A DNA stretch of 64,000 nt from Aneurinibacillus uraniidurans (GTDB taxonomy: Bacteria; Bacillota; Bacilli; Aneurinibacillales; Aneurinibacillaceae), in assembly GCF_028471905.1 (NCBI RefSeq), contig NZ_CP116902.1, positions 2,330,501-2,394,500 of the forward strand, written 5' to 3'. The stretch's first letter is position 1, and the number at the start of each line of letters is the position of its first letter. A program made the translations under genes and the position numbers. The notes below the pieces were generated by a model. It saw only the letters and a program-made list of their open reading frames with translations, was not told the origin of the DNA and ran no database searches. Positions 3,798 through 25,659 of this stretch are shown in pieces.

Positions 3798-5768
3798 CTA
3801 CACATTAAACTTACGTACAACTCCCTCTAATTCTTCTGCCATTTTTGTCAGAGAAGCTGAAGTCGCAGACACTTCCTGCATCGAAGCAAGCTGCTCCTCC
3901 GTACTCGCCGATACTTCAGTAATACTTGCTGACGTCTTCTCTACCGTCCGCGTTACAGAATGAATCGACGTAACGACTTGTTCAGTGTGAGCGGTAATCT
4001 CTTGTACAGCAGCTGCCACTTGTTGGATTTCATGCGTTACGCGGCTTACCGCTTCATATATTTGCGCAAAGGAACTTCCTGCACTTCCCACAACGCTAAG
4101 TCCTTTTTCTACTTCTCCTCTGCTAGCGTCCATAGAATGCAGTGCGGTGTCCATTTTACTCTTAATATCGTGGATTAAATCGGCCACTTTTTCTGCTGAG
4201 CTAGACGATTGCTCAGCCAACTTCCGAACTTCATCCGCAACGACAGCGAATCCTTGACCAGCTTCTCCCGCCCTTGCTGCCTCAATCGCTGCATTCAGGG
4301 CTAACAGGTTCGTCTGACCCGAGATATCGGTAATCAGTTTAGCAAAGTTGCCGATTTCCTCGATACTTGTATGCAGATGTTTGATAATACCGGATAACTC
4401 TTGAACGGAATGATTAATAAAATCCATCTGCCGCACAGTTACCTGAATCGTTTCCTTTCCTTCTTGCGCTATGCCCGATGTTTGTACCATCGCCGCTGAC
4501 GTACCTTGTGTATGTTTCGCGATCTCCTGAAGCGCTTGCGACATACCTGCAATGATCTCAGAAACTTTCTCTATATTTTTCGCTTCTTCTTCCGAGCTAC
4601 TTGCAATATCTAATACAGTTGTAGAAATATGTTCGGTGGCTAGCGTTGTTTCCTGGGAACCAACCATCAATTCTTCCGATGACGCAGCCAGATGATCTAC
4701 TTTTTCCTTTACCTCGCAAAGAACAGCCTGTAAAGCTCTTCTCATCTCATTAAAATGCTCACCTAATTGTCCAATCTCATCTTTCGAATGGATGACAACC
4801 TCTTCGGTTACATCTCCTTTGCTAATTTTGTCTGCCGCATGCTGCAACTGTGCAAGCGGCCGAGTAATGGAACGAATCACCACATACATCACCACAGCAC
4901 CGATCAATAACGATACGATAATCGTAAGAAGCGTCGTCCAAAAAATCCCTTGGACTCCCTCTGCTACTTCAGTCATTTGCATTGTTCCAGCGATTTTCCA
5001 GCCTGTCCGTTTATTCGTGACAAAAAATAATTGTTTCGCTCCGTCTTGATCTGAATACGTAATGTTACCGGAATCTTTCTCGAACAGCTTGCTAGCAATC
5101 ACTCCGGCTATGTTCTCGCCACTTTTTACTTCAGGATGTACTACCACTTTTTTCGTTCCATCTACGATAAATGCATACCCATGCTGACCGATTTTCTTTT
5201 GCTTTACGGTATTGCTTAAGTTCGTAAGATTTACATCAACCCCAATGACTCCACTTCCATCCTGCAGCGTTCTCGTTATGCCAACTACGACAGTATGGGT
5301 GATTTTGTCAAGATACGGCTCCGAAATAACTACGCTTCCTTTTGCTTCCATTGCGTTTTGATACCAGTCTCGCTTCCTGGGATCATAGTCCGAAGCAAGC
5401 TTGTCAGCTCCATCCGCAATCAAAAATCCCGCTGAAGTACCTACATAGGCAGATGTAACTTCAGGGTGTGTATTTTGAAAACGATGGATGATATCCATGA
5501 CAATCGGGCTTGTTCGACCCGTATACATACGCGCATCAATGGATCGAGAGAGATTATCCACATTTTTCATTTGCCCTTCTATCGATTCCGTAATCAACTC
5601 ATTAAGAGATTGTACATTGTCCATAGAAGATCTCATCATGTCCGCTTCAATACGATTTTTCGCAGCATTGTATGAAAAAAGTCCAATAATTAAACTCGGA
5701 ATCAATAACAGTAAGATAAACGCAATCTGTAATTTTCTCCCTACACTTGTTGTCATCCACTTAACCAT
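3798..5768 (-). CDS. Methyl-accepting chemotaxis protein with dCache-type sensor
   Basis: A 656-residue transmembrane receptor. TM1 lies near residues 10-30, followed by an extracellular double-Cache-like domain (about 35-275; ligand-pocket style YDPRKRDWY and VIGVDVNL), TM2, a HAMP domain and a C-terminal signalling hairpin with the highly conserved tip ([17 protein letters not shown]). The ligand is unknown; dCache receptors often bind amino acids or other small organic ligands. A GTG at 5777 would extend it by three codons, but that GTG overlaps the AAGGTGG ribosome binding site, which is properly spaced from the ATG at 5768. It is transcribed alone. Confidence 0.93.
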
Positions 5769-6461: not shown

Positions 6462-6881
6462 TCATAGAGCTTTTGTTTCTCTGACTGACAATAGAACGGT
6501 AATACACCCAAAAGCAACGAGCGCTAAAAACGGAATCGTGATAAACCCTAACCAATTTATATACTGACCGTTACAGGGAACACCCGTTGTGCACGGAAGA
6601 ATGTCCTGCATACCAGGCACTTTTTGTTCAAGGTAGTGAAACAAAGAAAGCACCATTCCACTACTGCTTAGCACTCTAACATACGGAACGATATGATCGT
6701 CCTCCCGATACGCGGCCATTCCTAACAAAATAGCCAACGGATACATACAAATACGCTGGAACCAGCATAATTTACACGGTTCAAACCCCATAATTTCACT
6801 AAAATATAAACTCCCCAGCAGTGCAATAACGGAAATGATCCATGCAAAATACAGACGATACGTTCTTATAATCGTACTCAC
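6462..6881 (-). CDS. bdbC: Disulfide bond formation protein BdbC (DsbB family)
   Basis: A 139-residue integral membrane protein with four helices. The first redox pair, CKLC at residues 36-39, and the second extracytoplasmic Cys pair (PCTTGVPC) are intact. It would re-oxidise BdbD and pass electrons to quinone. Its ATG overlaps the end of the upstream bdbD by 4 nt, so the two are translationally coupled. The length fits the family. Confidence 0.92.
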   Translation of the reverse strand: MSTIIRTYRLYFAWIISVIALLGSLYFSEIMGFEPCKLCWFQRICMYPLAILLGMAAYREDDHIVPYVRVLSSSGMVLSLFHYLEQKVPGMQDILPCTTGVPCNGQYINWLGFITIPFLALVAFGCITVLLSVRETKAL

Positions 6882-7591
6882 TTTTTCCTTTCGTCCTTAC
6901 TCTTCAAAATTTCCGCTTTTAACGCTGTATAGTCAAATGCAGTATCATTGGAAAGTTTTTTGCCATTAATATAAATCGTTGGCGTACTATGGATACCCAG
7001 TTTTGTTACAATCGCTTTATCGTTTTTAACATCCTCGGCAAACGTACGATTTTCTATCTCTTTTTTCAATTGCTCGTAATTCACATGCAGATTGGACTTT
7101 TTCGCAAGTTGAACAAGAAAATCAGCCGTAGCCCAGTTTGTTCCCTCATCACCTTGCGCCGCATAAACCGCTTTATAAAACTTCCAAAACTCAGCCGGGT
7201 TCTGCTTATAAATCGCTTCGCCTGCTAACGCTGCTGTCATCGAGTCGGCTTTTGGACTGACAATCGGGTAATTAATAAAGTGTAATTGAACGACTCCGCT
7301 ATCAATAAAATCTTTTTGTAACCTTGGTATAATAGATTGGGCAAATTTTTTACAGGCTGGACATTTAAAATCTGCAAATTCCACGATATTTACTGGCGCA
7401 CGGGTAGATCCGATAGTTGGTTGTTTTTCGTACTGAAATTCTGCTTCGTCAACCGCTCCGACTGCACGCGATTCGGAAAATTTATGAAAGGCTACGAAAG
7501 TGACAACCACGACAAGAATAACTGCCAGTGTCCATAATACGATCCGCTGTATTTTTCGTCTGCTGTTATTTTCTGTGTATTCGTTTCCCAT
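6878..7591 (-). CDS. bdbD: Thiol-disulfide oxidoreductase BdbD (DsbA-like)
   Basis: A 237-residue membrane-anchored thioredoxin-fold protein: one N-terminal TM helix, then a DsbA-like domain with active site FKCPACKKF and the cis-Pro segment HSTPTIYI. It introduces disulfides into exported proteins; BdbC is its partner. An ATG 15 nt upstream (7606) is in frame, but it lies on top of the GGAGAAG ribosome binding site that serves the ATG at 7591. The gene begins 23 nt downstream of the LOV/GGDEF/EAL gene, which runs the other way relative to none of its neighbours (all three are minus strand), so read-through is possible. Confidence 0.92.
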   Translation of the reverse strand: MGNEYTENNSRRKIQRIVLWTLAVILVVVVTFVAFHKFSESRAVGAVDEAEFQYEKQPTIGSTRAPVNIVEFADFKCPACKKFAQSIIPRLQKDFIDSGVVQLHFINYPIVSPKADSMTAALAGEAIYKQNPAEFWKFYKAVYAAQGDEGTNWATADFLVQLAKKSNLHVNYEQLKKEIENRTFAEDVKNDKAIVTKLGIHSTPTIYINGKKLSNDTAFDYTALKAEILKSKDERKK

Positions 7592-7614: not shown

Positions 7615-9834
7615 TCATTCAATTAAATCCCAACTAGAATCCCTAACAAGTTCTTCTAAATCATGGGCAGGCACAGGTTTACTAAACAAATATCCCTGTA
7701 TGTTTGTACAGCCATAATGAAACAAATAACGCAGCTGCTCTTCTGTTTCTACCCCTTCCGCCAACACAGACAACCCGAGCGATTGTGCCAGATAGATAAC
7801 CATGCGAACAATCTTCTCGCTGCCCTCATGCTGACCAATTTGCCGAACGAACGACTGGTCAATTTTTAGTACATCAAGCGGATAATTTTGCAAGTAGCTA
7901 AGTGAGGAGTATCCTGTACCAAAGTCATCCATCGAGATGCGAATCCCAATGTGATGTAACTTCTCGAAAACTTTCATTACATGATCACTATGATTCATCG
8001 CCACATTCTCCGTAATCTCAAGCCCTAAACATTGCGGAGAAAGTCCTGTTTCTTGCAAGACTTTTTCGACGGTCGAAACAAACCCGCTATGAATGAAATG
8101 AGGCGACGAAATATTGACATGCACAGGAATCGGATCTCGTCCCCGCTCCTGCCAGCGTTTACTTTGCTGACATGCTGTATACAGCACTTGTTCTTCCACC
8201 GCAAAAATAAAACCTGTCTCCTCCAAAATCGGGATAAATACAGCCGGAGAAATCATTCCCCTTTTTGGATGCTTCCACCGAAGCAGCGCTTCTACACCTA
8301 TGATTTTACGCGAAATAGCATCGACTTGCGGCTGGTAGTACACTAGAAATTCTTGATTTAATATGGCTTTTCGCACACTGTTAAGCAATTCTAGGTTTTC
8401 GCTATTCTCACTGCTCATCGCAGACGAATAAAACGCAATCTGATTCGAGCCTTTGCGCTTGGCCCGATACATCGCCACGTCTGCAAACTGAATTAACATG
8501 TCCATATTTTCAGAATCATAAGGAGACATACTAATCCCGACCGATGACGTCAAATAGTAATCTTCCTCATGAAGTTGAAACGGGTGCTGAAAGCAATCTA
8601 AGACCTTACCCACGACCTTTTCGACTTCCGCGACAAATTGAAATGGCAAACAGACAATAAACTCATCCCCGCCATAGCGAGCAATCTGGCACGATGCATC
8701 CAGATTACGTGTAAGACGTCTGGCAACCTCTTGTAAAATCTCATCACCTTTTGCGTGACCATACGTATCATTAATGATTTTAAAGCGATCCAGATCGATA
8801 AATAATACCGCCATCTTCTGTTTATGTACAAGAGCTTCTTTGCCTAATTCCTCTCGTACATAATTCCGATTTAACAATCCAGTAACCGTATCCCGATATG
8901 CAAGCTCATTAATTTTTTTCGTGTATGAGTGAAATTCTAGCGCAACCGCTGCAACTTTTACGATTTCTTCTAACAACTCAACTTCTTCTGGAAGCGGCTT
9001 GCGCGGTTTGGAAAAATAAACGGCAAACGTCCCTAAAATCTCCTTACTATTATGCTCACGGATGAGGAAAGACCAACAAGCTTCTAACCCGCTCTCACGT
9101 GCAATGTCCCGAAAGTCCCGCCACAATTCACTTTCCGAAATCTTGTCTACAATAACATTCTTATTGTAATAAATCGCTGTCCCACAAGAGCCTACATTCG
9201 GACCAACTTCAATCCCATCGACCGCCTTGTTGTAAAAAGAAGGAAGTCCTTGTGCTTCTCCAATGTACAACTTTCCCTCCTGTGATGAATACAACAGAAT
9301 GGAACACTTAGCCTCTTCAAGGAAAACCGCTTCGAGAAGCTTACACAAATGAAGTAAAACGGAATGAATATCTTCCCCTTCATATATTTTTTTTAGCGTC
9401 TGATTTAGAATGACAAGCTTCTGATGCGTTCGCTTTCGATGGGTAATATCTTGCTGGATACCAATGAAATATAGAAGCTCCTGTTCTTCATTAAAAATCG
9501 GACTAATAAATACCTCATTCCAGAACGCCGTTCCATCTTTTCGATAATTTAAAATCTCAACAGTAACGGGCCTTTTTTCTACAATGGCCTCTCTAATTTT
9601 TTTTCTGTCATCCAGATTGGTTTTAGCCCCCTGAAGAAATCGACAATTTTTCCCCAGCACCTCTTCTTTTGTGTAGCCCGTGTTTGTTGTAAATACTTCA
9701 TTGACATAAATAATTGGATTATCATCTTGATGCGGGTTGGTGATCAGAACAGATGAAGTAGTATGTTCGGCGAAATTTTGTATTACGTCCAGAAACACCG
9801 CTTTCTTTATTCCTCTAGGCAGTTTCGCGGCCAT
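7615..9834 (-). CDS. LOV-GAF-GGDEF-EAL blue-light-responsive c-di-GMP enzyme
   Basis: A 739-residue protein. Residues about 20-135 form a LOV-type PAS domain with the photoactive-cysteine motif GKNCRFLQG (Cys64) plus flavin-contacting Asn/Gln positions (NYRKDG, FWNE, GIQQDIT), very like YtvA. A GAF domain follows (about 150-300), then a GGDEF domain with an intact RYGGDEF active site and an EAL domain with intact VEALLRW and DDFGTGYSS motifs. It could both make and break c-di-GMP, with light setting the balance; which activity dominates cannot be read. The chosen start has a GAAGGAAGG ribosome binding site; an in-frame start at 9900 has none. A c-di-GMP riboswitch lies 13 kb away. Confidence 0.93.
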   Translation of the reverse strand: MAAKLPRGIKKAVFLDVIQNFAEHTTSSVLITNPHQDDNPIIYVNEVFTTNTGYTKEEVLGKNCRFLQGAKTNLDDRKKIREAIVEKRPVTVEILNYRKDGTAFWNEVFISPIFNEEQELLYFIGIQQDITHRKRTHQKLVILNQTLKKIYEGEDIHSVLLHLCKLLEAVFLEEAKCSILLYSSQEGKLYIGEAQGLPSFYNKAVDGIEVGPNVGSCGTAIYYNKNVIVDKISESELWRDFRDIARESGLEACWSFLIREHNSKEILGTFAVYFSKPRKPLPEEVELLEEIVKVAAVALEFHSYTKKINELAYRDTVTGLLNRNYVREELGKEALVHKQKMAVLFIDLDRFKIINDTYGHAKGDEILQEVARRLTRNLDASCQIARYGGDEFIVCLPFQFVAEVEKVVGKVLDCFQHPFQLHEEDYYLTSSVGISMSPYDSENMDMLIQFADVAMYRAKRKGSNQIAFYSSAMSSENSENLELLNSVRKAILNQEFLVYYQPQVDAISRKIIGVEALLRWKHPKRGMISPAVFIPILEETGFIFAVEEQVLYTACQQSKRWQERGRDPIPVHVNISSPHFIHSGFVSTVEKVLQETGLSPQCLGLEITENVAMNHSDHVMKVFEKLHHIGIRISMDDFGTGYSSLSYLQNYPLDVLKIDQSFVRQIGQHEGSEKIVRMVIYLAQSLGLSVLAEGVETEEQLRYLFHYGCTNIQGYLFSKPVPAHDLEELVRDSSWDLIE

Positions 9835-15697: not shown

Positions 15698-15733
15698 AAA
15701 AGCACTACTGACAACAGTATGTCAGTAGTGCTT
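15698..15733. terminator. Intrinsic terminator containing the WYL gene stop codon
   Basis: AAAAGCACTACTGACA / TGTCAGTAGTGCTTT is a 15-bp stem with a 6-nt loop. The last three codons and stop of the WYL regulator lie inside one arm, so translation to the end would hinder folding. Confidence 0.85.
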
Positions 15734-16663
15734 TATCATTTTTGCTATTTCTTCCTGAACTCGCTTCCGCAATGGTTCCGGGCTTAACACTTTAGCATCT
15801 GCCCCCCAACTCAACACCCATGGAAGCACTTCCTCAAATTGACGAACTCTAAGTACAACAAGCAGACCTTCCGAAGTTTCCTCTACTGCTTCCGTGTAAA
15901 AATAATTGTATTCCTTTACCTTATCCAAGAGATCCCGGTTCAGTAAAATATGTACCAGAACGTTACGATCATCAGGCGGTTCATATGTTTGCAAGTTAAA
16001 GCTGGATGGTCTTTCAAACTTCTCATCCAATAATGTAAGTTCATACATGCGCTGTAAGCGAAAGTGACGAAGTTCCTGGCGCAAATGGCAAAACGCAATA
16101 AGTGTCCATGTGCCACCTACAAACACAAGACCGTATGGCTCAACGGTGCGGGAACTTTGGCGATTACCTGTAGGTTCCGGTATTTTTTTCATATAGCAGA
16201 AGTGTACTTTTCTCTCCTCTAGTACAGCGCGACGTAGCAATCCAAGCACTTCCTCCGATTGCTCACTATCTGCTGTTCCCGTAAGCAGTTTTAAGCCCGC
16301 GCGCATCCTTACTGCTTCCCTTTGTACCGATTCAGGTAAAATCGATTCGATTTTCCCCCTAGACGCACGTGCCTTCACACGATAATTCACATCAAACTGC
16401 TGCTCTATGAAGTCGATTCCGAGCAGTAACGTGACCGCTTCTTCGGCTGTAAAACTGACAGGAGGCAAAAAATAACCATCAACTAATGAATATCCTTGAC
16501 CAGGGGCTCCTACAATCGGTACACCAGCCTCGCTAAGAGCCTGTATGTCCCGGTAAATCGTGCGTATGCTCGTCTCAAATATAGCAGCCAGATCTTCCGC
16601 TCGACTCGTCCCTGTACGCTGTAATTCTAGCACAATCGCTAACATACGATCCGTTTTATTCAT
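15722..16663 (-). CDS. YafY-type HTH/WYL-domain transcriptional regulator
   Basis: A 313-residue regulator. Residues 1-60 hold an HTH_11 domain (SRAEDLAAIFETSIRTIYRDI), followed by the PPVSFTAEEAVTLLLG linker and a WYL ligand-binding domain (TVEPYGLVFVGGTWTLIAFC-like core), then a WCX extension. WYL domains bind nucleotides or small ligands. The DinB-like and GyrI-like genes directly downstream are plausible targets. The ribosome binding site GAGGAAAGG is good. Confidence 0.9.
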   Translation of the reverse strand: MNKTDRMLAIVLELQRTGTSRAEDLAAIFETSIRTIYRDIQALSEAGVPIVGAPGQGYSLVDGYFLPPVSFTAEEAVTLLLGIDFIEQQFDVNYRVKARASRGKIESILPESVQREAVRMRAGLKLLTGTADSEQSEEVLGLLRRAVLEERKVHFCYMKKIPEPTGNRQSSRTVEPYGLVFVGGTWTLIAFCHLRQELRHFRLQRMYELTLLDEKFERPSSFNLQTYEPPDDRNVLVHILLNRDLLDKVKEYNYFYTEAVEETSEGLLVVLRVRQFEEVLPWVLSWGADAKVLSPEPLRKRVQEEIAKMIKHY

Positions 16664-16712
16664 AGGCTGCCCCTTTCCTCAAGCCATACTTATAACACCA
16701 CGAAAATACCCG

Positions 16713-17372
16713 TTACACTTCGACCCAATGCCGAACAATCTCCACATCGTCTCGATACTCAACATGCTCAGGCAGATCATTCGTATTTACACATAAACAG
16801 GCCAGATGCGTTTCATCGATATAATAGTGACGAATCGCCCAATTATTCTTCACCTCTTCTATGGTAAAAAAACATGCCGGGGTAATCAACCCTGTTCCGA
16901 TCGCTTTGCCAATCGCTTCTTTTTGCGTCCATTTTTCATAAAAAAACACCCAGCGATTCGCTTCTGTTTGCTGCAATAGCAAGGTAAACTCTTCTCGCGA
17001 TAAACACGCAAAAACAGTCGCAAAATCAAGCGGCTGAATTTCCTCTATATCAACGCCTACTCTTCCCTTGTCTGTCATGGCACATATAATCCATTTTCCC
17101 GCATGACTAATGGTAAAGTCCCCCTGCCAACTCGAGGACGCCTCTATATAAGGGCGTCCTCGTTGGTCTCGTCTATACCATTTCATCACATCTATATCTA
17201 GCTCATACTGTTGAAACATATAGTTTACTGTTAACATGCCTAGCAATGCTCGCTGCCGATCTTCTATTCTTTTATATTGTAGAATACGCTGCTGCTCCTG
17301 CGCTGGCAACTTGGCAAGATAACAGCTTAGTTTATCTGCAGAAATATAGCCCGTATTTCGTACGGCTATCAT
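16713..17372 (-). CDS. sfp: 4'-phosphopantetheinyl transferase, Sfp type
   Basis: A 219-residue protein, close to the about 224 of B. subtilis Sfp. The magnesium/CoA motif VGVDIEEI and the second motif FYEKWTQKEAIGKAIGTGL are intact. It transfers phosphopantetheine from CoA to the carrier-protein serine. The start at 17372 has an AAGGTG ribosome binding site and lies 2 nt after the stop of the NRPS gene, so this is the dedicated or shared activator of that NRPS carrier domain. A longer in-frame reading to 17474 would overlap the NRPS gene and is rejected. Confidence 0.93.
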   Translation of the reverse strand: MIAVRNTGYISADKLSCYLAKLPAQEQQRILQYKRIEDRQRALLGMLTVNYMFQQYELDIDVMKWYRRDQRGRPYIEASSSWQGDFTISHAGKWIICAMTDKGRVGVDIEEIQPLDFATVFACLSREEFTLLLQQTEANRWVFFYEKWTQKEAIGKAIGTGLITPACFFTIEEVKNNWAIRHYYIDETHLACLCVNTNDLPEHVEYRDDVEIVRHWVEV

Positions 17373-17374
17373 GA

Positions 17375-20300
17375 TCACCTTACTGCCACGTACTCCTTGG
17401 CAGCTGGGAAATATCCGATTGTAACAGCATGAGAGACTAGCACCTGTGTTAACGCCTGATCTGGCTTTGGACACTCGATTCCTTCTCTGCTTAAAATCTC
17501 TTGTGCTTCCTTACACACATACCGATATTCAGAATCGTGTGCTCCATCCCCTTCGAGCTGAGCTATCGCTAACTCAAACCCTTCAGTCTTTCTGCCGGAA
17601 TCATCTAGCTGGAATAAATACTCCTGATATTTCATCGGTTCTAGAAGCGTAATCTCATAGCCTAGCACTCGTAATTGTGTAATGAAGTCTGCATAATGAA
17701 TCTGTTCACGATTACATATGTGGAAGGTTCTTCCGTCCGCTTCTGGTTGACTGGCCAGCTTTACAATCGCTCGACTAGCGTAATCGACTGGTGTGATATC
17801 GACGTACCAATCCGCAGTAGGAGCAACACGTAAGAGCAGCATCGCTTTTATCATCCGGTAAAACGCATTGCTTTCAATGTTACGCTGGAATTTTCCAGAC
17901 TGCGTACGACCAACCAAATTACCTACACGATAAATCGTCGCAGCAACACCTTGCTGCATTGCCGCCCGTACAATGTTCTCTGCCTGCAGCTTACTATTGG
18001 AGTACTCATTTTCTAATACCACATCATATGTGAAATCACCATGTTTCACAAAGTCATCCCATTGCCCGCTCATCGCCAGGTCTTCCGGTACACTTACCGT
18101 TGAGATGTGATGAAAATGAGCACCTTGCTTATGACGAATCATGTCAAGTAAGAGCGCTGTCCCTCTTACATTTATTTTTTCAAAATGGGCGGAGTCTCCG
18201 AAATGACGAACATCCGCTGCACAATGAATAATCGCATCCAGCTTATCAGACAACTCAGCGCGCACCTCAGAAGATAGACCAAGATCAGACTCACTTAGAT
18301 CTCCTTCGACCATTACGATCCTATGCTGGAAGTCTTCTGTCTGAATATCTGGAAAATAAAAGTTCATCGTATCAAGCAGACGCTGACTAGGTGAAACGCC
18401 CCCGGAAACACGAATCAGACAATAAACGGTCGCTTTCGTTTCCTGCAACAGCTCATGGATGATGTGGGCGCCAAGATAACCGGTTCCTCCCGTTACAAGT
18501 ACATTCTGTGCTTCCTTCCACGCCCGATTCTTTGCCGCTTTTACCGCAGGAGGTTCTGTTAACTCCTTAATCTGGCGCTCTTCATTAGACAATGCCTGTG
18601 TCGGTGCTAACTCTTTTGCTTGCTCCACATATTCTGCTAATGCCGCAATCGTACGATAGCGGAAAAAATCCTGGATCTTCAAGAAAGGAAACGTAGGCTT
18701 GAGCAAGACAAGAATGCTGATGATTTTTAATGAATGACCGCCGCTTTCAAAGAAGTCATCCGTAACCCCGATTTCCTCTACACCAAGCACTTTTTCCCAT
18801 GCTTTGGCGATACATATCTCTGTCTCACTTTTCGGCTTTTCCCGATTTCCTTGTGTTAGGACAATCTTATCTTCTCTGCTCACTAATAGCTTCCGATCAA
18901 TCTTACCCGTCGGAGAAATCGGCAGATTCTCCAGGAAAATAAACTGTTCCGGAATCATATACCCTGGCAGCAATTGAGCCAGAAATAATCGTATGTCCTT
19001 TTCATTCAACGGATGCATACTACCTGTACTGTAGTACGTTACCAGTCGTTTATTCCCGTCTTCTTCTACCTTTGCTACAACCGCTACATGTTCAACATCG
19101 GCTTGCTTAGCAAATGCATCTTCAATTTCATCGATTTCAATTCGGTGACCGCGAATTTTCACCTGATTGTCCTTACGTCCCACATACTCGATATTACCGT
19201 CAGCTAACAAACGGACAATATCTCCCGACTTATATAAATACTCTCCTGAAGTATCAGAGAATAGATGCGGTACAAAAGCATCCGCTGTTTTATCGGGCTT
19301 ATTCAAGTATTCCTTAGCTAAGCCTACTCCACCGATATACAGCTCACCCGGTACATGAATTGGACATAACTGCCCATGTGGATCTACCACGTACGTTTCA
19401 TAATTGTCATACGGCTTTCCAATCGGAATATATACTTGATCGGATGGAACTTCTTCTTCGACAAGATAAATCGTAGTCCCTACCGTACACTCTGTTGGTC
19501 CGTATGCATTAAAAATCTTACTAGAAAGTCCAAAACGGCGCTGCCATAGACGTACGGTTTCACCAGTTAGTGCTTCACCTGCTACAATGATTCTCTTAAT
19601 TGTTTGCAGTTTAGGAATGCTTTCCTCTTCTAGATAAGCGGCAATTTGTTTAAAGAAGGCGGTCGGCAAGGCCAACGCTCCTGTTGCCTGTACCCTCTCG
19701 GCAGCATTCGCAAATTCTTCAATGGCCATCCGCTCCACATTCGCAAGCAAATGCAAACGCGCCCCCCAAAGCAATGCAGAAAATGTCTCGGCAATCGAGG
19801 CATCAAAGCTATAAGAAGCAAATTGCAGAAAAACATCCTCTGGCATACATTCATACGGTCCCCGCAAATATACGAGCAAATTGACGGCACCTCTATGAAG
19901 AATAACCGTTCCTTTCGGGTTCCCTGTCGAACCAGACGTATAAATCACATAAGCAGGATCTTCTGCCGCTGGATAGGTAGAAAAATGAATCGCGTCATAC
20001 GGAATCAACGATGCATCATCCACATACAGTACCTGAGCAGCATGCTCGGTCGAACGAATACATTCCTCCAGGGTACTTGTATATGCTGGTTTCGTGACGA
20101 TAAAAGCAGCCCGACTATCCCCAAGCATATACTCGATACGGGCAAGTGGATATTCCGGATCAATCGGGACATAAACACCACCCGCTTTCATAATTCCTAA
20201 TAGGCCTACTACAGTTTCAAGACTCCGTTCCATGAACAGAGCGACAAAGTCTCCTGTTTTCAGCCCATGATCGCATAGCATTTGCGCAACCTGATTCGAT

Positions 20301-21121
20301 TTGTTGTGCAGCTCTTCGTACGTAAGCTGTCCTTTCTCCGAGGAGAGGGCAATACGAGACGGAAATTTCGTCGCCGCTTCGATAAACAAAGCCGGAAGCG
20401 TCTTGTCTGCTGGAAATGCTCTTTTTGTATCATTCAGTGTCTGATACAGTTCCCGTTCTACCTGACTCAAAATCGTACATTTACGGAAATGAGCATCCGG
20501 TTGAGTTACCAGTGTTTCTAAAATTATTTGATATTGTTCAATAAAACGATGGATCGATTCCAACTTATATGCTGCAGCATGAAACTGTACTTCTACATCA
20601 CACTCATTTGAATGTACATCCACATTCCAGATCATTGGTACCGATTGTTCATTGCACGCGGCATCCCTTGTCGTAAAGATGGCCGGATACTGAATCGGTG
20701 TAGCCGTATGGAGGAAAAGGCGATGTTCAAGCGCTTCCCCTACTCGCATTTTTACTTCCTGTAACAGCTGCTCGAATGTCTCGATTCCCGCAAGAGAAAT
20801 ACGGAGAGGAAGAATGTTTATGTCTTCCCCCTCATAAACAGCAGGAATACCCACAATCAGGTCTTCCTCATACGTAAGCCGATACATCCAAGTAATATAG
20901 GCAGACAGCAGCATCGCTTCTATTTCGTTGTCACTCGCTTGGCATACATGATGTACCTTCTGTAGCCACGGTCCTTGTATCGAAACCTTCACCGATTCTT
21001 TTTCCGCATCGTATAACGAAAATCGCGAGAAATCGGCTGGTATTTGAATAATAGGCAGCGGCTCAGCCAATCGATCAAGCCAGTACCGTTCGGTAGTTTT
21101 TTCTTTTGTATACTCTTCCAT
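17375..21121 (-). CDS. Single-module NRPS: partial C - A - PCP - terminal thioester reductase
   Basis: A 1248-residue protein. Residues about 1-215 are the C-terminal half of a condensation domain (starts at YWLDRL, no HHxxxDG active site). The adenylation domain (about 240-740) has YTSGSTGNPKG, NAYGPTE, YKSGD and PTGKIDRK motifs. The carrier domain has DDFFESGGHSLK with the phosphopantetheine serine. The C-terminal reductase (about 880-1248) has VTGGTGYLGAH and the YSNSK catalytic motif. It would load one amino acid and release it as an aldehyde or alcohol. Reading the specificity positions by eye gives D-A-A-A-I-A-A-V-G-K, which suggests a hydrophobic substrate at low confidence. An sfp gene follows 2 nt later. 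Upstream, a chemoreceptor gene ends 50 nt away. Confidence 0.93.
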   Translation of the reverse strand: MEEYTKEKTTERYWLDRLAEPLPIIQIPADFSRFSLYDAEKESVKVSIQGPWLQKVHHVCQASDNEIEAMLLSAYITWMYRLTYEEDLIVGIPAVYEGEDINILPLRISLAGIETFEQLLQEVKMRVGEALEHRLFLHTATPIQYPAIFTTRDAACNEQSVPMIWNVDVHSNECDVEVQFHAAAYKLESIHRFIEQYQIILETLVTQPDAHFRKCTILSQVERELYQTLNDTKRAFPADKTLPALFIEAATKFPSRIALSSEKGQLTYEELHNKSNQVAQMLCDHGLKTGDFVALFMERSLETVVGLLGIMKAGGVYVPIDPEYPLARIEYMLGDSRAAFIVTKPAYTSTLEECIRSTEHAAQVLYVDDASLIPYDAIHFSTYPAAEDPAYVIYTSGSTGNPKGTVILHRGAVNLLVYLRGPYECMPEDVFLQFASYSFDASIAETFSALLWGARLHLLANVERMAIEEFANAAERVQATGALALPTAFFKQIAAYLEEESIPKLQTIKRIIVAGEALTGETVRLWQRRFGLSSKIFNAYGPTECTVGTTIYLVEEEVPSDQVYIPIGKPYDNYETYVVDPHGQLCPIHVPGELYIGGVGLAKEYLNKPDKTADAFVPHLFSDTSGEYLYKSGDIVRLLADGNIEYVGRKDNQVKIRGHRIEIDEIEDAFAKQADVEHVAVVAKVEEDGNKRLVTYYSTGSMHPLNEKDIRLFLAQLLPGYMIPEQFIFLENLPISPTGKIDRKLLVSREDKIVLTQGNREKPKSETEICIAKAWEKVLGVEEIGVTDDFFESGGHSLKIISILVLLKPTFPFLKIQDFFRYRTIAALAEYVEQAKELAPTQALSNEERQIKELTEPPAVKAAKNRAWKEAQNVLVTGGTGYLGAHIIHELLQETKATVYCLIRVSGGVSPSQRLLDTMNFYFPDIQTEDFQHRIVMVEGDLSESDLGLSSEVRAELSDKLDAIIHCAADVRHFGDSAHFEKINVRGTALLLDMIRHKQGAHFHHISTVSVPEDLAMSGQWDDFVKHGDFTYDVVLENEYSNSKLQAENIVRAAMQQGVAATIYRVGNLVGRTQSGKFQRNIESNAFYRMIKAMLLLRVAPTADWYVDITPVDYASRAIVKLASQPEADGRTFHICNREQIHYADFITQLRVLGYEITLLEPMKYQEYLFQLDDSGRKTEGFELAIAQLEGDGAHDSEYRYVCKEAQEILSREGIECPKPDQALTQVLVSHAVTIGYFPAAKEYVAVR

Positions 21122-21171
21122 TACACTATCACCCTTTTATTAGTTTCTATCTTTGGCTGCTATTCGTGTAA

Positions 21172-22908
21172 TTACAGATGGAAACGTTCAATCGTCTCTT
21201 TCAGCTCACAGACTACTTCATCTAATTCTTCTGTTTCCTTGGCAATCTCTTGCATCGATGCCAACTGTCTTGTCGACGATGAAGAAACAGCAGAAGCATT
21301 ACCTGCAAACTCTTGGGAAACGCCTGCCACTGATTCCATCGATGCTGTTACTTGTTGTGAACTAGCTGCCATTTCCTCAGACGTAGCCGATACTTCCTGA
21401 ATTTGTGCATTAATACTGTGAACTGCTTCTAAAATATAGGCAAAAGCTTGTCCTGCCTTTTCAACGACTTCCATTCCTACATTTACTTCCCTAACCGTAT
21501 GATCCATCGATGAAATAGAATGAGTCGTACTTCCTTGAATTTCCTGTACAAGATTTGCGATTTGCTGGGCGGATTGCGTGGACTGCTCCGCTAATTTCCT
21601 CACTTCATCAGCTACAACCGCAAATCCCTTCCCATGCTCACCCGCACGTGCTGCTTCAATTGCCGCATTAAGTGCTAATAAGTTCGTTTGAGAAGAAATC
21701 TCGGTAATAATGTCTACAATTTTACTAATTTCCTGCGAGTGCTCTCCTAATGATCTCACATCAGAAACAGATTGATTGACCGAAAGACTAATGCTTTTCA
21801 TCTGTTCGATTACTTTCTTCGTGATGATGTTTCCTTCTTCTGCTTCTGAAGCCATTGTATTCGAGACTTCAGAGATGCTGCCCGAGGTGAGCGCTACATG
21901 CTGAACTCCGTCTGCCAACTCCTGCGTAGCCTGTGAGCTGGCCATGATGCTCCCAACCTGCATCTCCGTACCGCTGGCAATTTCCTGAATCGCTGCCGAA
22001 ACTTGCTGATTCTCTTGCACAGTATTTTTAATTTCGGATGATAGTCTTGTTGATAAATGAGAAATGCGGGACGAAACATCCGTTACGTTATGAATAATCC
22101 CCCGCAGATTTTTGAGCATCGCATAAAAGCTTTTTCCTAATTCACCAATCTCATCGTTACTTTTTATTTCCTCAATTTCAATATTCAAATTCCCCTCCGC
22201 AATCATATGTGCTTTTTCGGACAGGGATTGAATCGGTGCCATCATACGTCTGATGATAAAATAAATAAGCAATCCACTAACAATGATAAAGAACAGCATC
22301 ATGTACAAAATTGTACTGGCTTCTTTCCATGCTTTTTGATTGACTTCCGCTACATTATAATCAACCACATAAAGCGCAATAACATTGTTGTTTTCATCTA
22401 CAATCGGCGCAAGCCCTGTTTTGTATTGACCGTACTGATCGCCATATACATCTGTAGCTTGAATTTTCTTCTGTTCAAACGACGTTTTCATCAGAGCAAG
22501 CAAATCCGGTGAGAGGCCTACTTCGTTCAGGTTCTGATTATATGGTACATCTGCTTTTCTTAGACTTGAACTCATTGCAACATTAAAAAACTGTCCATTC
22601 TTATAGGAGGCAATAAATAAGTTGGCAATAATTTTAGAATTGCCCATGATTTCATCCATCTTTTTTGTCATTTGCAGTGCATCCGGGTTTTTATCATTCG
22701 GCTGCGCAACGATGGATCGTACTTGATCCTGATTTACTTCTTCTGCCAGAATAGCTGCTGCATCATTCAACTGCTTGCTCATACTATTCAAGTTACTATT
22801 TTTAATCATAGAATATGCAGCTATACTACTAAAAACTCCAAAAGCAACTAAGATAGCAAGAGCCGCAATAATAATTTTCATACTTGCCGAACTTCTAATC
22901 TTCCTCAC
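21172..22908 (-). CDS. Methyl-accepting chemotaxis protein under riboswitch control
   Basis: A 578-residue receptor with TM1 (about 11-33), a Cache-like extracellular domain (about 40-190), TM2, HAMP, and a signalling domain with the conserved [25 protein letters not shown] tip in pieces. The start is GTG at 22908, 6 nt after a GAGGGG ribosome binding site; the nearby ATG at 22912 is out of frame. The leader holds a c-di-GMP-I riboswitch plus terminator, and the NRPS gene follows after 50 nt without a visible terminator. Confidence 0.93.
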
Positions 22909-23007
22909 TCATAACCCCTCCAGATCATCATCTTTCCTTATCCCCTGCAACACCTATAGTTCAACCCACCAAGTCAGCAAATTCTGTATATTCCCCCTTC
23001 AACAAAA

Positions 23008-23054
23008 AAACAACCCCTAATAAAACGAATGCACAAAGCAAGCAGGGGTTGTTT
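23008..23054 (-). terminator. Riboswitch-linked intrinsic terminator
   Basis: On the minus strand, AAACAACCCCT pairs with AGGGGTTGTTT across a 25-nt loop and is followed by a T-run, about 85 nt before the chemoreceptor start. The 5' arm (CAACC) can also pair with GGTTG at the 3' edge of the aptamer, so the two structures look mutually exclusive. Confidence 0.8.
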
Positions 23055-23057
23055 CGA

Positions 23058-23148
23058 ATGCAACCTGGCAGCCGTAGTCAGAAAGACCGTAGGCCCATAG
23101 CTTTGCGTCCCATCTTTTCAGAAGGTTTGCCAACATTTACATATTATA
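23058..23148 (-). promoter_or_regulatory. c-di-GMP-I (GEMM) riboswitch aptamer and its promoter -10
   Basis: The minus-strand RNA reads GGCAAACC, then a GAAA-capped hairpin, GGGACGCAAAGC, GGCCTACGG, a hairpin, and ACGGCTGCCAGGTTGC. These are the conserved blocks of the GEMM-I aptamer, including the GGGACGCAAAGC core and the tetraloop receptor. A TATAAT hexamer at 23148-23143 places the transcript start right before the aptamer. With the terminator at 23008-23054 it should control elongation into the chemoreceptor gene, most likely by termination when c-di-GMP is bound. Confidence 0.9.
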
Positions 23149-23398
23149 TATGTCACGTATGTTTAAATAACAACGAGGAAAATTTTACACTTTTCCTCAA
23201 ATTTTTTCAATAACAATCTACTAAATAGTACTTTTTTATCACCAAAGAGAGCAATTCAGAGATATTGAAAGCATTTCCATGCGAAAATCGTAAAAATTAA
23301 ATATAGAAAAAGATTTTATCCTATTATAAAGTTAGCATTTTACCGTAATAAAGGGTACAATTTAGATAGTTGAGTATTAATTCTAGGAGGATTCATAC

Positions 23399-24169
23399 AT
23401 GAAACGATTTACAGCCCTACTTTTTGTATTTGCAATGATGTTATCCGTCATTGCCGGATGCTCTAGTACTAGCAACAATAAAAAAGAATTAGTCATCGGT
23501 GTGGATGATCAGTTTGCTCCGATGGGATTTCGAGATGATAAAAACCAACTCGTTGGATTTGACATTGATTATGCACGTGCAGCCGGCAAAAAGATGGGAT
23601 ACAACGTTGTATTCCAGCCAATCGATTGGTCAGCAAAAGAATCCGAGCTGGCTAGCGGTCGCATTGATTTAATCTGGAATGGATATACCATTACGGATGA
23701 ACGGAAACAAAAAGTATTATTTACAAAACCATATCTGAAAAATTCACAAGTGATCGTTATCCCGGCGGCATCACCTATTAAAACTCTAAACGATCTTGCA
23801 GGTAAAAAGATCGGGCTGCAATCGATGTCTTCAGCAGCAGATGCGTTAAATGCAAATCCAATCAAAGCAAAAGTCGGTAACGTATCCGAGTACAAAGATA
23901 ATGTGTTAGCATTAAGTGATTTGAAAATCGGTCGCGTCGATGCACTTGTTATGGACGAAGTAGTTGCCCGCTATTATATGTCGAAAGAAAACAATACATT
24001 TAAATTACTTCCTGAATCATTAGCGCCAGAAGAGTACGGAGTCGGTGTTAAGAAAGGCAATGAAAAATTGTTGAATCAGCTGCAAAAAGCACTCGATGAC
24101 ATGAACAAAGACGGCTCAGCAGCCGAAATCTCTAAAAAATGGTTTGGCGAAGATAAGGTATTGAAATAA
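23399..24169 (+). CDS. Amino-acid ABC transporter substrate-binding lipoprotein (family 3)
   Basis: A 256-residue lipoprotein with signal and lipobox ending IAGC, followed by the family-3 fold: GVDDQFAPMGF, GFDIDYA, and WSAKESELASGRIDLIWNGYTITDERK in pieces. It binds a polar amino acid outside the membrane and hands it to the permease encoded next. The ligand is not clear; cystine or Arg/His types are the closest functional classes. Ribosome binding site CTAGGAGG. An attenuating hairpin separates it from the permease gene. Confidence 0.92.
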   Translation: MKRFTALLFVFAMMLSVIAGCSSTSNNKKELVIGVDDQFAPMGFRDDKNQLVGFDIDYARAAGKKMGYNVVFQPIDWSAKESELASGRIDLIWNGYTITDERKQKVLFTKPYLKNSQVIVIPAASPIKTLNDLAGKKIGLQSMSSAADALNANPIKAKVGNVSEYKDNVLALSDLKIGRVDALVMDEVVARYYMSKENNTFKLLPESLAPEEYGVGVKKGNEKLLNQLQKALDDMNKDGSAAEISKKWFGEDKVLK

Positions 24170-24188
24170 CATACGAACATATGAGAAA

Positions 24189-24220
24189 GAAACCCGGATT
24201 TCTTCAACGATCCGGGTTTC
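24189..24220 (+). terminator. Intercistronic hairpin (probable attenuator)
   Basis: GAAACCCGGAT / ATCCGGGTTTC stem between the binding-protein gene and its permease; the T-run is short, which would let part of the transcripts continue and give excess binding protein. Confidence 0.6.
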
Positions 24221-24240
24221 TCAATTAGGAGTATCGATAA

Positions 24241-24900
24241 ATGAGCATGGATTATATACTAACGACTACCCTTTCAATGCTAGAAGGCGCACAAATGACG
24301 ATTTTGTTATTTCTAATCGCCATTGTTGTGTCCATTCCACTCGGATTTATTTTAACGATGATGGCAAATAGCAAGCTTAAGCCGCTTGCCTGGTTTGCCC
24401 ATGGCTATATTTATGTCATGCGTGGAACCCCATTATTATTACAGCTGCTATTTATTTGTTTTGGTCTGCCTCTCATTCCGGTTGTTGGCGACTATCTGAT
24501 CATGGATCGGTTTGTCGCGGCTTGTGTCGGCTTTATTTTGAACTACGCTGCCTACTTTGCAGAAATCTTCCGCGGTGGTCTGCTAGCGATTGACAAAGGA
24601 CAATATGAAGCTTCACAAGTGTTAGGATTAAACAGATGGCAAACCATAACAAAGGTTATTTTACCGCAAATGTTCCGTGTTGCACTTCCTGCGGTTTCAA
24701 ATGAGTCGATTACACTCATTAAAGATACGGCATTGTTATATGCCGTTGCCGTTCCTGAATTGCTTCATTTTGCGCAAACGGCTGTAAACCGCGACTTTAC
24801 GATTGTTCCATTTTTTATTGCAGGTATCATGTACTTGCTGATGACGCTCGTATTGACACTGCTGTTTAAACTACTTGAAAAAAAGTTCAAATTTGAATAA
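24241..24900 (+). CDS. Polar amino-acid ABC transporter permease (HisM type)
   Basis: A 219-residue membrane protein with about five helices, the FRGTPLL-type loop (VMRGTPLLLQLLF) and the EAA coupling motif (GQYEASQVLGLNRWQTITKVILPQ in part). It is the transmembrane half of the transporter. The ribosome binding site is TTAGGAG. The ATPase gene follows 15 nt later. Confidence 0.93.
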   Translation: MSMDYILTTTLSMLEGAQMTILLFLIAIVVSIPLGFILTMMANSKLKPLAWFAHGYIYVMRGTPLLLQLLFICFGLPLIPVVGDYLIMDRFVAACVGFILNYAAYFAEIFRGGLLAIDKGQYEASQVLGLNRWQTITKVILPQMFRVALPAVSNESITLIKDTALLYAVAVPELLHFAQTAVNRDFTIVPFFIAGIMYLLMTLVLTLLFKLLEKKFKFE

Positions 24901-24915
24901 AAGGATTGGCACCCA

Positions 24916-25659
24916 ATGGATATGATTCAAGTTTCAAATCTAAAAAAATCGTTTGGACACGTGGATGTACTAAAAAAGATTACGTTTTCGATCCAGAAAA
25001 ACGAAGTTGTCGCGGTTATCGGTCCCTCAGGCTCAGGAAAAAGTACGATGCTTCGCAGCCTGGTCGACCTAGAGCATGTCGATGGCGGGAGCGTTTGTGT
25101 GCAAGGGGACTATCTCGTTAAAGATGGAACGTATGCGAACAGCAAGGATATAAAGAAAGTCACATCGAAAATGGGCATGGTGTTTCAGCATTTTAACCTC
25201 TTCCCCCATCTAACCGTAAAAGAAAACCTGGAACTGGCACCTAAGCATGTAAAGAAAGAGCCAGCTGCAGAGATCAGTAAGCGCAGTCGTGAGTTGTTAG
25301 ACAAAGTTGGCTTGGCTGCGAAAGCAGATGCGTACCCTGCCAATCTTTCAGGTGGACAAAAGCAGCGTGTTGCCATTGCTCGTGCCCTGATGATGAAGCC
25401 GGATATTATTCTTTTTGATGAACCGACTTCCGCACTTGACCCGGAACTGACAGGTGAAGTCTTGCAAGTTATGAAACAGCTTGCGGAAGAACACATGACC
25501 ATGATTGTCGTCACACATGAGATGGGATTTGCCCGGGAAGTGGCGAACAAAGTTATGTTTATGGACAACGGTGAAATTTTGGAATCCGGCACACCTGAAC
25601 AGCTCTTTACGAATCCACAATTCGAAAGAACAAAAGCATTTTTACAGCGAGTTTTGTAA
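24916..25659 (+). CDS. Polar amino-acid ABC transporter ATP-binding protein (GlnQ/HisP type)
   Basis: A 247-residue ATPase with Walker [11 protein letters not shown]-loop at FQHFNLFPH, signature LSGGQKQR, Walker [13 protein letters not shown] and the H-switch VVTHEMGFA. It completes a three-gene importer. Terminator follows. Confidence 0.95.

Follow-up and report, generated by a model that had tools for sequence, protein, structure and literature searches.

We analysed a 64,000-nt stretch of the Aneurinibacillus uraniidurans genome (contig NZ_CP116902.1, positions 2,330,501 to 2,394,500; hereafter the window). Our subject is a minus-strand locus at which the aptamer of a cyclic di-GMP (c-di-GMP) riboswitch and an intrinsic terminator precede genes for a methyl-accepting chemotaxis protein (MCP), a nonribosomal peptide synthetase (NRPS)-like amino-acid reductase with adenylation, thiolation and reductase domains (A-T-R), and an Sfp-type carrier loader. 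The features of this locus, in window coordinates, are:

23056-23141 (-), c-di-GMP-I (GEMM-I) riboswitch aptamer; RF01051, 67.0 bits over the full model, contacts G11, A38 and C82
23007-23055 (-), intrinsic terminator (expression platform); hairpin with a folding free energy (dG) of -18.4 kcal/mol and a U-run, 0/60 shuffles as stable, alternative pairing in the predicted nascent fold
21172-22908 (-), MCP of 578 aa with a predicted extracytoplasmic single Cache sensor, HAMP and MCP signalling domain; MCPsignal 166.7 bits, HAMP 50 bits, sensor model
21122-21171 (-), MCP-A-T-R gap of 50 nt without a terminator-like site in the terminator scan; gaps of 0-345 nt in 51 orthologous loci
17375-21121 (-), NRPS-like amino-acid reductase of 1248 aa with half a condensation (C) domain (C-lobe only), A, T and R; Pfam and NCBIfam domains, half-C fold, no HHxxxD[GA]
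20417-21121 (-), C-terminal half of a condensation domain, residues 1-235; Condensation profile positions 191-327 of 456, structure model
17411-18505 (-), thioester reductase domain, residues 873-1237; TIGR01746 218.4 bits against a cut-off of 213.35, GGTGYLG and YSNSK motifs
16713-17372 (-), Sfp-type 4'-phosphopantetheinyl transferase of 219 aa; Pfam ACPS PF01648 46.9 bits against a cut-off of 25

The aptamer, terminator and gene layout

An Rfam scan of the entire window with curated gathering cut-offs returned three matches above cut-off, namely two tRNAs and a c-di-GMP-I aptamer (RF01051) at 23141-23056 on the minus strand, which covers the full-length model at 67.0 bits against a gathering score of 35 (E 5.9e-11). 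All three ligand-contact positions are present, C82 having been located via the alignment; in Bc1, a riboswitch of Bacillus thuringiensis, G11, A38 and C81 are equated with G20, A47 and C92 of Vc2 (available text of PMC11218506). The window element is a true c-di-GMP-I aptamer, predicted to bind c-di-GMP. The genome (one contig of 3,853,322 bases) contains six RF01051 matches, every one above cut-off, and 21 matches to GGDEF, 19 of them above cut-off, so c-di-GMP is probably in use in this organism. Judged from their translations, read without a family search, the genes behind the other five aptamers encode an MCP, a short MCP-like protein, a CBS-domain protein, an HD-GYP protein and a large surface-type protein.

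The terminator hairpin (23055-23007), followed by a U-run, begins directly 3' of the aptamer, and none of 60 shuffled window leaders reached its stability. A scan of the minus strand listed no terminator-like site between the MCP and A-T-R genes (21171-21122), and the sfp ATG, at 17372, lies 2 nt past the A-T-R stop. The original prediction, made before any database search, had placed a GEMM-I aptamer and terminator on this leader, followed by a chemoreceptor gene, a 50-nt gap without a hairpin, and sfp 2 nt behind the synthetase gene, and each of these elements was borne out. Of the outcomes named beforehand as refuting the prediction, neither a terminator in the gap nor an RF01051 score below significance was seen. 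As judged by sequence, MCP, A-T-R and sfp would be co-transcribed, and a transcription start inside the MCP-A-T-R gap may exist.

Conservation of the receptor-enzyme pair and of the switch

A class-wide search covered 398 genomes, 65 of which had a match; 38 rows were fetched beyond those already in the set, and those left unfetched were mostly frames of >2000 aa. Orthologues were defined by a profile score of at least 1000 bits and a frame of at most 1330 aa, which gave 56 unique sequences that form a non-random sample. Dropped before this count were the duplicates L055, L158, L163 and L180 and the loci L186-L188, which had scores <1000 bits or frames >1330 aa and at which no MCP was found. 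An MCP gene lies directly upstream on the same strand in 51 of the 56 orthologues, a count that is to be read with the profile (A1) in mind, as it was built from seven MCP-adjacent proteins and favours MCP-adjacent loci; the gap ranges from 0 nt (L185) through 14 nt (L040) to 345 nt. The five orthologues without an upstream MCP are L169, L181 and L182-L184, and at L182, L183 and L184 an MCP of the same family is found downstream of the A-T-R gene instead. The gene order first proposed for the window is thus repeated in other genomes, and with 51/56 orthologues paired we reject chance adjacency of an MCP and an NRPS-like gene.

Within the window's own family, 5 of 11 sampled genomes (its own included) carry an orthologue, and all five have an MCP upstream and a class I aptamer before the MCP, the aptamer of L039 being called as the related family RF03167. 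Among relatives from Paenibacillus, Gorillibacterium, Lysinibacillus and Sporosarcina, an upstream MCP was present at 18/18 loci compared to 0/62 other NRPS loci in the same search, the latter being a weak control because those loci span many phyla, some of them not motile, and some are cut short.

A covariance model with Rfam's structure (R2, which replaced R1, an RNAalifold model of 8 pairs) detected an aptamer upstream in 15 of the 56 orthologues (the window, L037-L040, L051, L053, L056, L087, L168-L172 and L185), and Rfam confirmed all 15, the best score of the model on the 62 control NRPS loci being 19.2 bits. At the core Paenibacillus loci no c-di-GMP-I aptamer was found. On a quickly built A-T-R tree (48 rows including L186-L188, with long-branch warnings), the distribution of the aptamer needs five changes, compared to a mean of 13 with shuffled labels, and the aptamer is therefore either old or often regained. 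Two observations concern individual aptamers. The one at L056:3950-4034 (+) carries A instead of the G that the 13 other aligned aptamers share at the site equivalent to Vc2 G20, a change linked to the cGAMP (cyclic GMP-AMP)-responsive GEMM-Ib switches. The L170 locus has a second c-di-GMP-I aptamer (9219-9309, plus strand; 87.7 bits), divergent from that of the operon and located before a 226-aa putative DNA-binding open reading frame (ORF).

At L169 the MCP is missing, and the A-T-R gene is immediately preceded by an aptamer and terminator (6726-6956, minus strand); this layout is the best evidence that the switch serves the enzyme as well as the receptor. It bears on an alternative in which the switch governs the chemoreceptor only, while the A-T-R gene, driven by a promoter of its own, serves an unrelated function and owes its adjacency to inheritance. 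Such a receptor-specific switch would have precedent, given that MCP genes are an established target of c-di-GMP-I switches, Bc1 being "frequently found upstream" of them (available text of PMC11218506), and that two of the five other aptamers in this genome precede MCP or MCP-like genes; the longest MCP-A-T-R gaps also suit it. Besides L169, the recurrence of the adjacency in several families, the gap in the window free of terminator-like sites and the very short gaps of L185 and L040 all argue against it, and we regard it as distinctly improbable.

The A-T-R enzyme and its carrier loader

The 1248-aa protein had been predicted to be a one-module NRPS, a description that we replace with half-C-A-T-R. 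Its domains score, in the order A, T and R, 276.3 bits (AMP-binding), 39.4 bits (PP-binding), and 183.1 (NAD_binding_4) and 218.4 bits (Thioester-redct), and its match to Pfam Condensation is confined to profile positions 191-327 of 456. A structure model of residues 1-235 (mean predicted confidence, pLDDT, of 84.6) resembles NRPS C domains over roughly half their length, with a template-modelling (TM) score of about 0.8 by query and about 0.4 by isolated C-domain target. The HHxxxD[GA] motif was sought in the orthologues and found in 0/56. We therefore reject a complete C-A-T-R module; with only the C-lobe of a C domain and no HHxxxDG, no peptide bond is expected, and the enzyme is read as a stand-alone A-T-R. 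Nine shorter orthologues (L044, L056, L057, L087, L173-L176 and L185; 999-1060 aa) are without most or all of the half-C.

By analogy with characterized enzymes, the A-T-R protein should activate one amino acid and release it reductively as an aldehyde, which can become a pyrazine. With ATRed of Xenorhabdus indica (PMC7586950) it shares the stand-alone A-T-R organization of a minimal NRPS and, by prediction, amino aldehyde release and a pyrazine outcome; it differs in its N-terminal half-C, its MCP partner and its c-di-GMP switch, and the word "chemotaxis" is absent from the main text of that paper. The ATRed pyrazine was isolated, and the route proposed in the available text is dimerisation and oxidation of an amino aldehyde derived from phenylalanine (PMC7586950); the available part of a second paper gives this route for monomodular NRPSs that end in a reductase domain (PMC8658869). 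In NCBIfam, the A-T-R protein scores highest with the aureusimine synthetase AusA (NF047350) and Sfp with the 4'-phosphopantetheinyl transferase AusB (NF047349), both far under the equivalog cut-offs (687 against 2500 and 77.9 against 225). AusA is a two-module synthetase that ends in a reductase domain. The AusA R domain was used in the ATRed study, according to its available text (PMC7586950). Carboxylic acid reductases and the L-aminoadipate reductase Lys2 share the A-T-R logic (TIGR03443, 356.6 bits; NF041592, 144.8 bits), the window protein falling below the respective cut-offs of 1030.1 and 1300. We know of no receptor link for either of these groups.

Ten-residue A-domain pocket codes, extracted with GrsA numbering, fell into 23 distinct types among 48 proteins (20 among the 45 that remain without the non-orthologues L186-L188), and given this wide variation the substrate probably differs between lineages. 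The carrier-domain serine is conserved in 48/48 proteins, and the reductase YxxxK is present in all motif variants except one (CTNSK). We take the window code, DAAAIAAVGK, to resemble aromatic codes only loosely and claim no substrate for it. In the A domain of L169, the usual Asp235 is replaced by G.

A one-sequence search, which may miss divergent ORFs, detected an Sfp-like ORF just downstream in 13/56 orthologous loci. On this count we reject Sfp as an essential part of the system and consider it a dispensable neighbour.

The chemoreceptor and its sensor family

The sensor of the window MCP had no match to Pfam Cache by sequence, and a PDC match was obtained in 3 of 20 relatives. Its structure model (mean pLDDT 90.1) aligns with CitA (2j80) at Z 14.5 and a root-mean-square deviation of 1.8 over 123 residues, and its best Foldseek match is KinD (4jgp; E 2.3e-06). 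On the basis of this model, the sensor is a single extracytoplasmic Cache/PDC domain.

A search of the 398 genomes with a sensor profile gave matches in 76, and the top 30 listed matches are A-T-R-linked receptors. We reject the proposal that the family is exclusive to A-T-R loci, given that core Paenibacillus genomes hold a second copy elsewhere and that L199-L201 have the receptor without A-T-R. Ten sensor-family loci without A-T-R were fetched; a c-di-GMP-I aptamer was found at 0/10, and in three a gene for a pyridoxal phosphate (PLP)-dependent decarboxylase (PF00282) adjoins the receptor:

L199:2865-7156; L200:1580-6471; L201:3441-8409, Cache-family receptor beside a convergent decarboxylase gene, with no A-T-R and no aptamer

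Since the two genes are convergent in each case, they do not form one operon. The decarboxylases score below NCBIfam cut-offs, and a sodium:neurotransmitter-type symporter gene adjoins the decarboxylase in L200 (PF00209) and, by appearance, also in L201. The recurrence of amino-acid-consuming enzymes as neighbours fits a receptor ligand that is an amino acid or its derivative, and our guess is that the window receptor most likely senses the A-T-R product or its precursor amino acid.

These decarboxylase neighbours also lend themselves to another explanation, in which the A-T-R product is an antimicrobial or a metabolic by-product rather than a signal, and the receptor serves taxis towards the substrate amino acid. 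With the same sensor family beside a PLP decarboxylase, the shared ligand could be an amino acid, and 2,5-bis(1-methylethyl)-pyrazine from Paenibacillus is antimicrobial, the available text not naming its gene (PMC5481530). Taken alone, this explanation would leave the conserved MCP-enzyme pair unexplained; we consider it quite possible, at somewhat less than even odds.

Leader folding and the direction of the switch

A terminator was identified in 14/14 scanned leaders, the pick of the script at L170 being a larger composite hairpin. The fifteenth leader, L053, was omitted from the terminator scan and from the pairing and shuffle tests because its gene start was miscalled; here a terminator was seen by eye. 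An equally stable terminator arose in 0/60 shuffles for ten leaders and in 2-3/60 for L051, L087, L171 and L172.

In the fold of the whole window leader, aptamer-like folding and the terminator coexist: the aptamer (to 23056) and the terminator (from 23055) do not overlap, and a fold in which the aptamer is forced leaves the terminator whole. The terminator-loop segment GCUUUGUG (23039-23032) is complementary, with one G-U pair, to the aptamer core CGCAAAGC (23107-23100). In a predicted fold of the nascent RNA with its 3' end in the terminator loop, the aptamer is disrupted; the core pairs with this loop segment, and GGUUG at the aptamer edge (23065-23061) forms a helix with CAACC (23051-23047) in the 5' arm of the terminator. 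Pairing between the 5' arm and the aptamer edge had been part of the original prediction, and while it does appear in this predicted fold it is not found beyond chance (see below). With the core broken and the 5' arm of the terminator partly sequestered in the ligand-free nascent fold, the likeliest behaviour of the leader is that of an OFF switch in which c-di-GMP would favour termination, a direction that we consider fairly probable.

Proposed mechanism and its weighing

The reading that we prefer, with a probability of about 0.68, is that the c-di-GMP-I riboswitch controls MCP, A-T-R and sfp as one operon by transcription termination, that the operon is off at high c-di-GMP, and that the receptor senses the product of the enzyme or its amino acid. 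In sessile cells, with high c-di-GMP, the bound aptamer would leave the terminator free and the operon off, whereas in motile cells, with low c-di-GMP, pairing of the aptamer core with the loop and 5' arm of the terminator would permit read-through. The transcript would then encode a single-Cache chemoreceptor, an A-T-R reductase with a vestigial half-C, and an Sfp-type carrier loader. The enzyme would activate an amino acid, tether it to the T domain and release an amino aldehyde, which could dimerise to a dihydropyrazine or pyrazine or undergo further reduction, and the receptor would sense this product or its source amino acid.

Several results weigh against this reading. Antiterminator pairing in the window is not above that of shuffled platforms (p 0.204; nascent fold z 0.45), and a Fisher test over 11 leaders, leaving out the near-relatives L037 (p 0.756), L039 (0.015) and L172 (0.706), gave p 0.19; single leaders ranged from L169 (0.020) and L038 (0.035) to L171 (0.771), L170 (0.786) and L056 (1.0). 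When the test was based on duplex energies, the fractions obtained for the 5' arm and loop were mixed and lay between 0.003 and 0.89. Since shuffled platforms pair equally well over the leader set, the antiterminator lacks statistical support, and we reject it as such a feature. Bc1-mcpE, the nearest case that has been studied, had no in vivo c-di-GMP response, and T1, one of its terminators, opened when c-di-GMP was high, according to the available text (PMC11218506). Furthermore, 41/56 orthologues have no c-di-GMP-I aptamer, and the switch is therefore not essential to the MCP-A-T-R pair. The sensor family also extends beyond A-T-R loci, as seen from the second Paenibacillus copy and the three genomes with a convergent PLP-decarboxylase neighbour. 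Lastly, although distances across 31 thinned loci correlate at 0.76 between signalling domain and A domain and at 0.57 between sensor and A domain (Mantel 0/1000 for the sensor), the partial sensor-A-domain correlation given the other domains is just 0.21.

The first two of these points are also what would favour the same operon with the opposite sign, an ON switch in which c-di-GMP prevents termination, so that sessile or surface-attached cells would produce both receptor and enzyme: the pairing evidence for an OFF switch is at chance level, T1 of Bc1 opened at high ligand, and Bc1 reportedly activated a reporter in B. subtilis (available text of PMC11218506). The separate aptamer and terminator of the window, the forced-aptamer fold that keeps the terminator whole and the ligand-free nascent fold all speak against this, and we consider an ON switch unlikely.

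Bc1-mcpE of B. thuringiensis resembles the window locus in its class I aptamer, intrinsic terminator(s) and MCP gene directly downstream; it differs in having two terminators, and "nonribosomal" is absent from the main text of the paper (PMC11218506). A literature search found no paper on the combination of a c-di-GMP riboswitch, a chemoreceptor and an NRPS or A-T-R enzyme, an absence that is weak given that subscription journals were mostly outside the search. Searches with partial overlap (riboswitch, c-di-GMP and NRPS; chemoreceptor, NRPS and same operon) gave, by title, none on this combination, and none was found that joined methyl-accepting chemotaxis, thioester reductase and Paenibacillus.

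Each part of the locus is of a known kind; the unusual element is the recurrent receptor-enzyme pair, partly under c-di-GMP control, and a signalling circuit is unproven. The broadest claim made originally was that c-di-GMP sets both sensing and secretion of a small signal, and of this the aptamer, the terminator and the conserved pair stand, whereas secretion would follow by analogy alone and the switch may act in either direction. The pairing offers a candidate function for the little-studied stand-alone A-T-R enzymes and a short ligand list for an orphan Cache receptor family, and the c-di-GMP-I regulon would be extended from motility and surface genes to small-molecule synthesis. A more tentative extension, which we doubt more than we credit, is a synthase-receptor module in which cells make an amino-acid-derived molecule (amino aldehyde, amino alcohol or pyrazine) and steer by it, with c-di-GMP gating production and perception; as the A-domain pocket varies between lineages, such modules would constitute a family of private chemotactic signals. 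If the receptor does sense the product of the adjacent enzyme, the two would match, in chemotaxis, the pairing of an autoinducer synthase with its receptor, and an intracellular messenger would decide whether a cell both emits and follows the signal.

Other leaders and neighbouring features

A strongly conserved leader without an aptamer (GACACCTATGG ... CCAAGACCATGGTCGCA ... GGAGGGGATC) lies 5' of the MCP gene at L045 (~3964-4067, plus strand) and at 16 other core-Paenibacillus loci. We rejected it as a second riboswitch: the sequence is kept in 17 loci, but the RNAalifold structure is weak and covariation almost nil. In the neighbourhoods of L041 and L042 no Rfam riboswitch was found, the sole match being CRISPR-DR12 in the L041 leader (30.9 bits, under its cut-off of 37). 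A sigma-D promoter as alternative control in aptamer-less loci likewise found no general support, as best scores were within the shuffled range at 42/43 loci, the exception being L178 (11/12, compared to at most 10 in shuffles). At L178 and L179, which belong to a family without an aptamer at its A-T-R loci, a sigma-D-like TAAA-N16-ACCGATAT/C is located ~93-100 nt before the MCP gene; only that of L178 exceeds shuffles.

One promoter-like element lies 5' of the window aptamer:

23182-23210 (-), candidate sigma-A-like promoter TTGAAA-17-TAAAAT; consensus scan only, number of hits at chance level

Promoter-like hits carry no weight here, because 13 were observed over 16600-23450 compared to 15.4 in shuffles.

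Downstream of sfp, a WYL regulator gene (15722-16663) was considered as a member of the operon and rejected, because in genome G005 an ABC-transporter trio stands between the WYL gene and sfp. In G005 the block of sfp, A-T-R, MCP and aptamer is on the opposite side of this trio compared to the window, and therefore either the block moved as one unit or the trio moved. The trio, of amino-acid type, is at 23399-25659 in the window and at L037:3409-5670. The two species share a genus but have the trio on different flanks of the block, and its position appears to differ by local rearrangement, with the operon block kept whole. About 8 kb from the operon, a GGDEF domain (8440-8901, minus strand; 148.2 bits) is encoded inside a 763-aa open frame.

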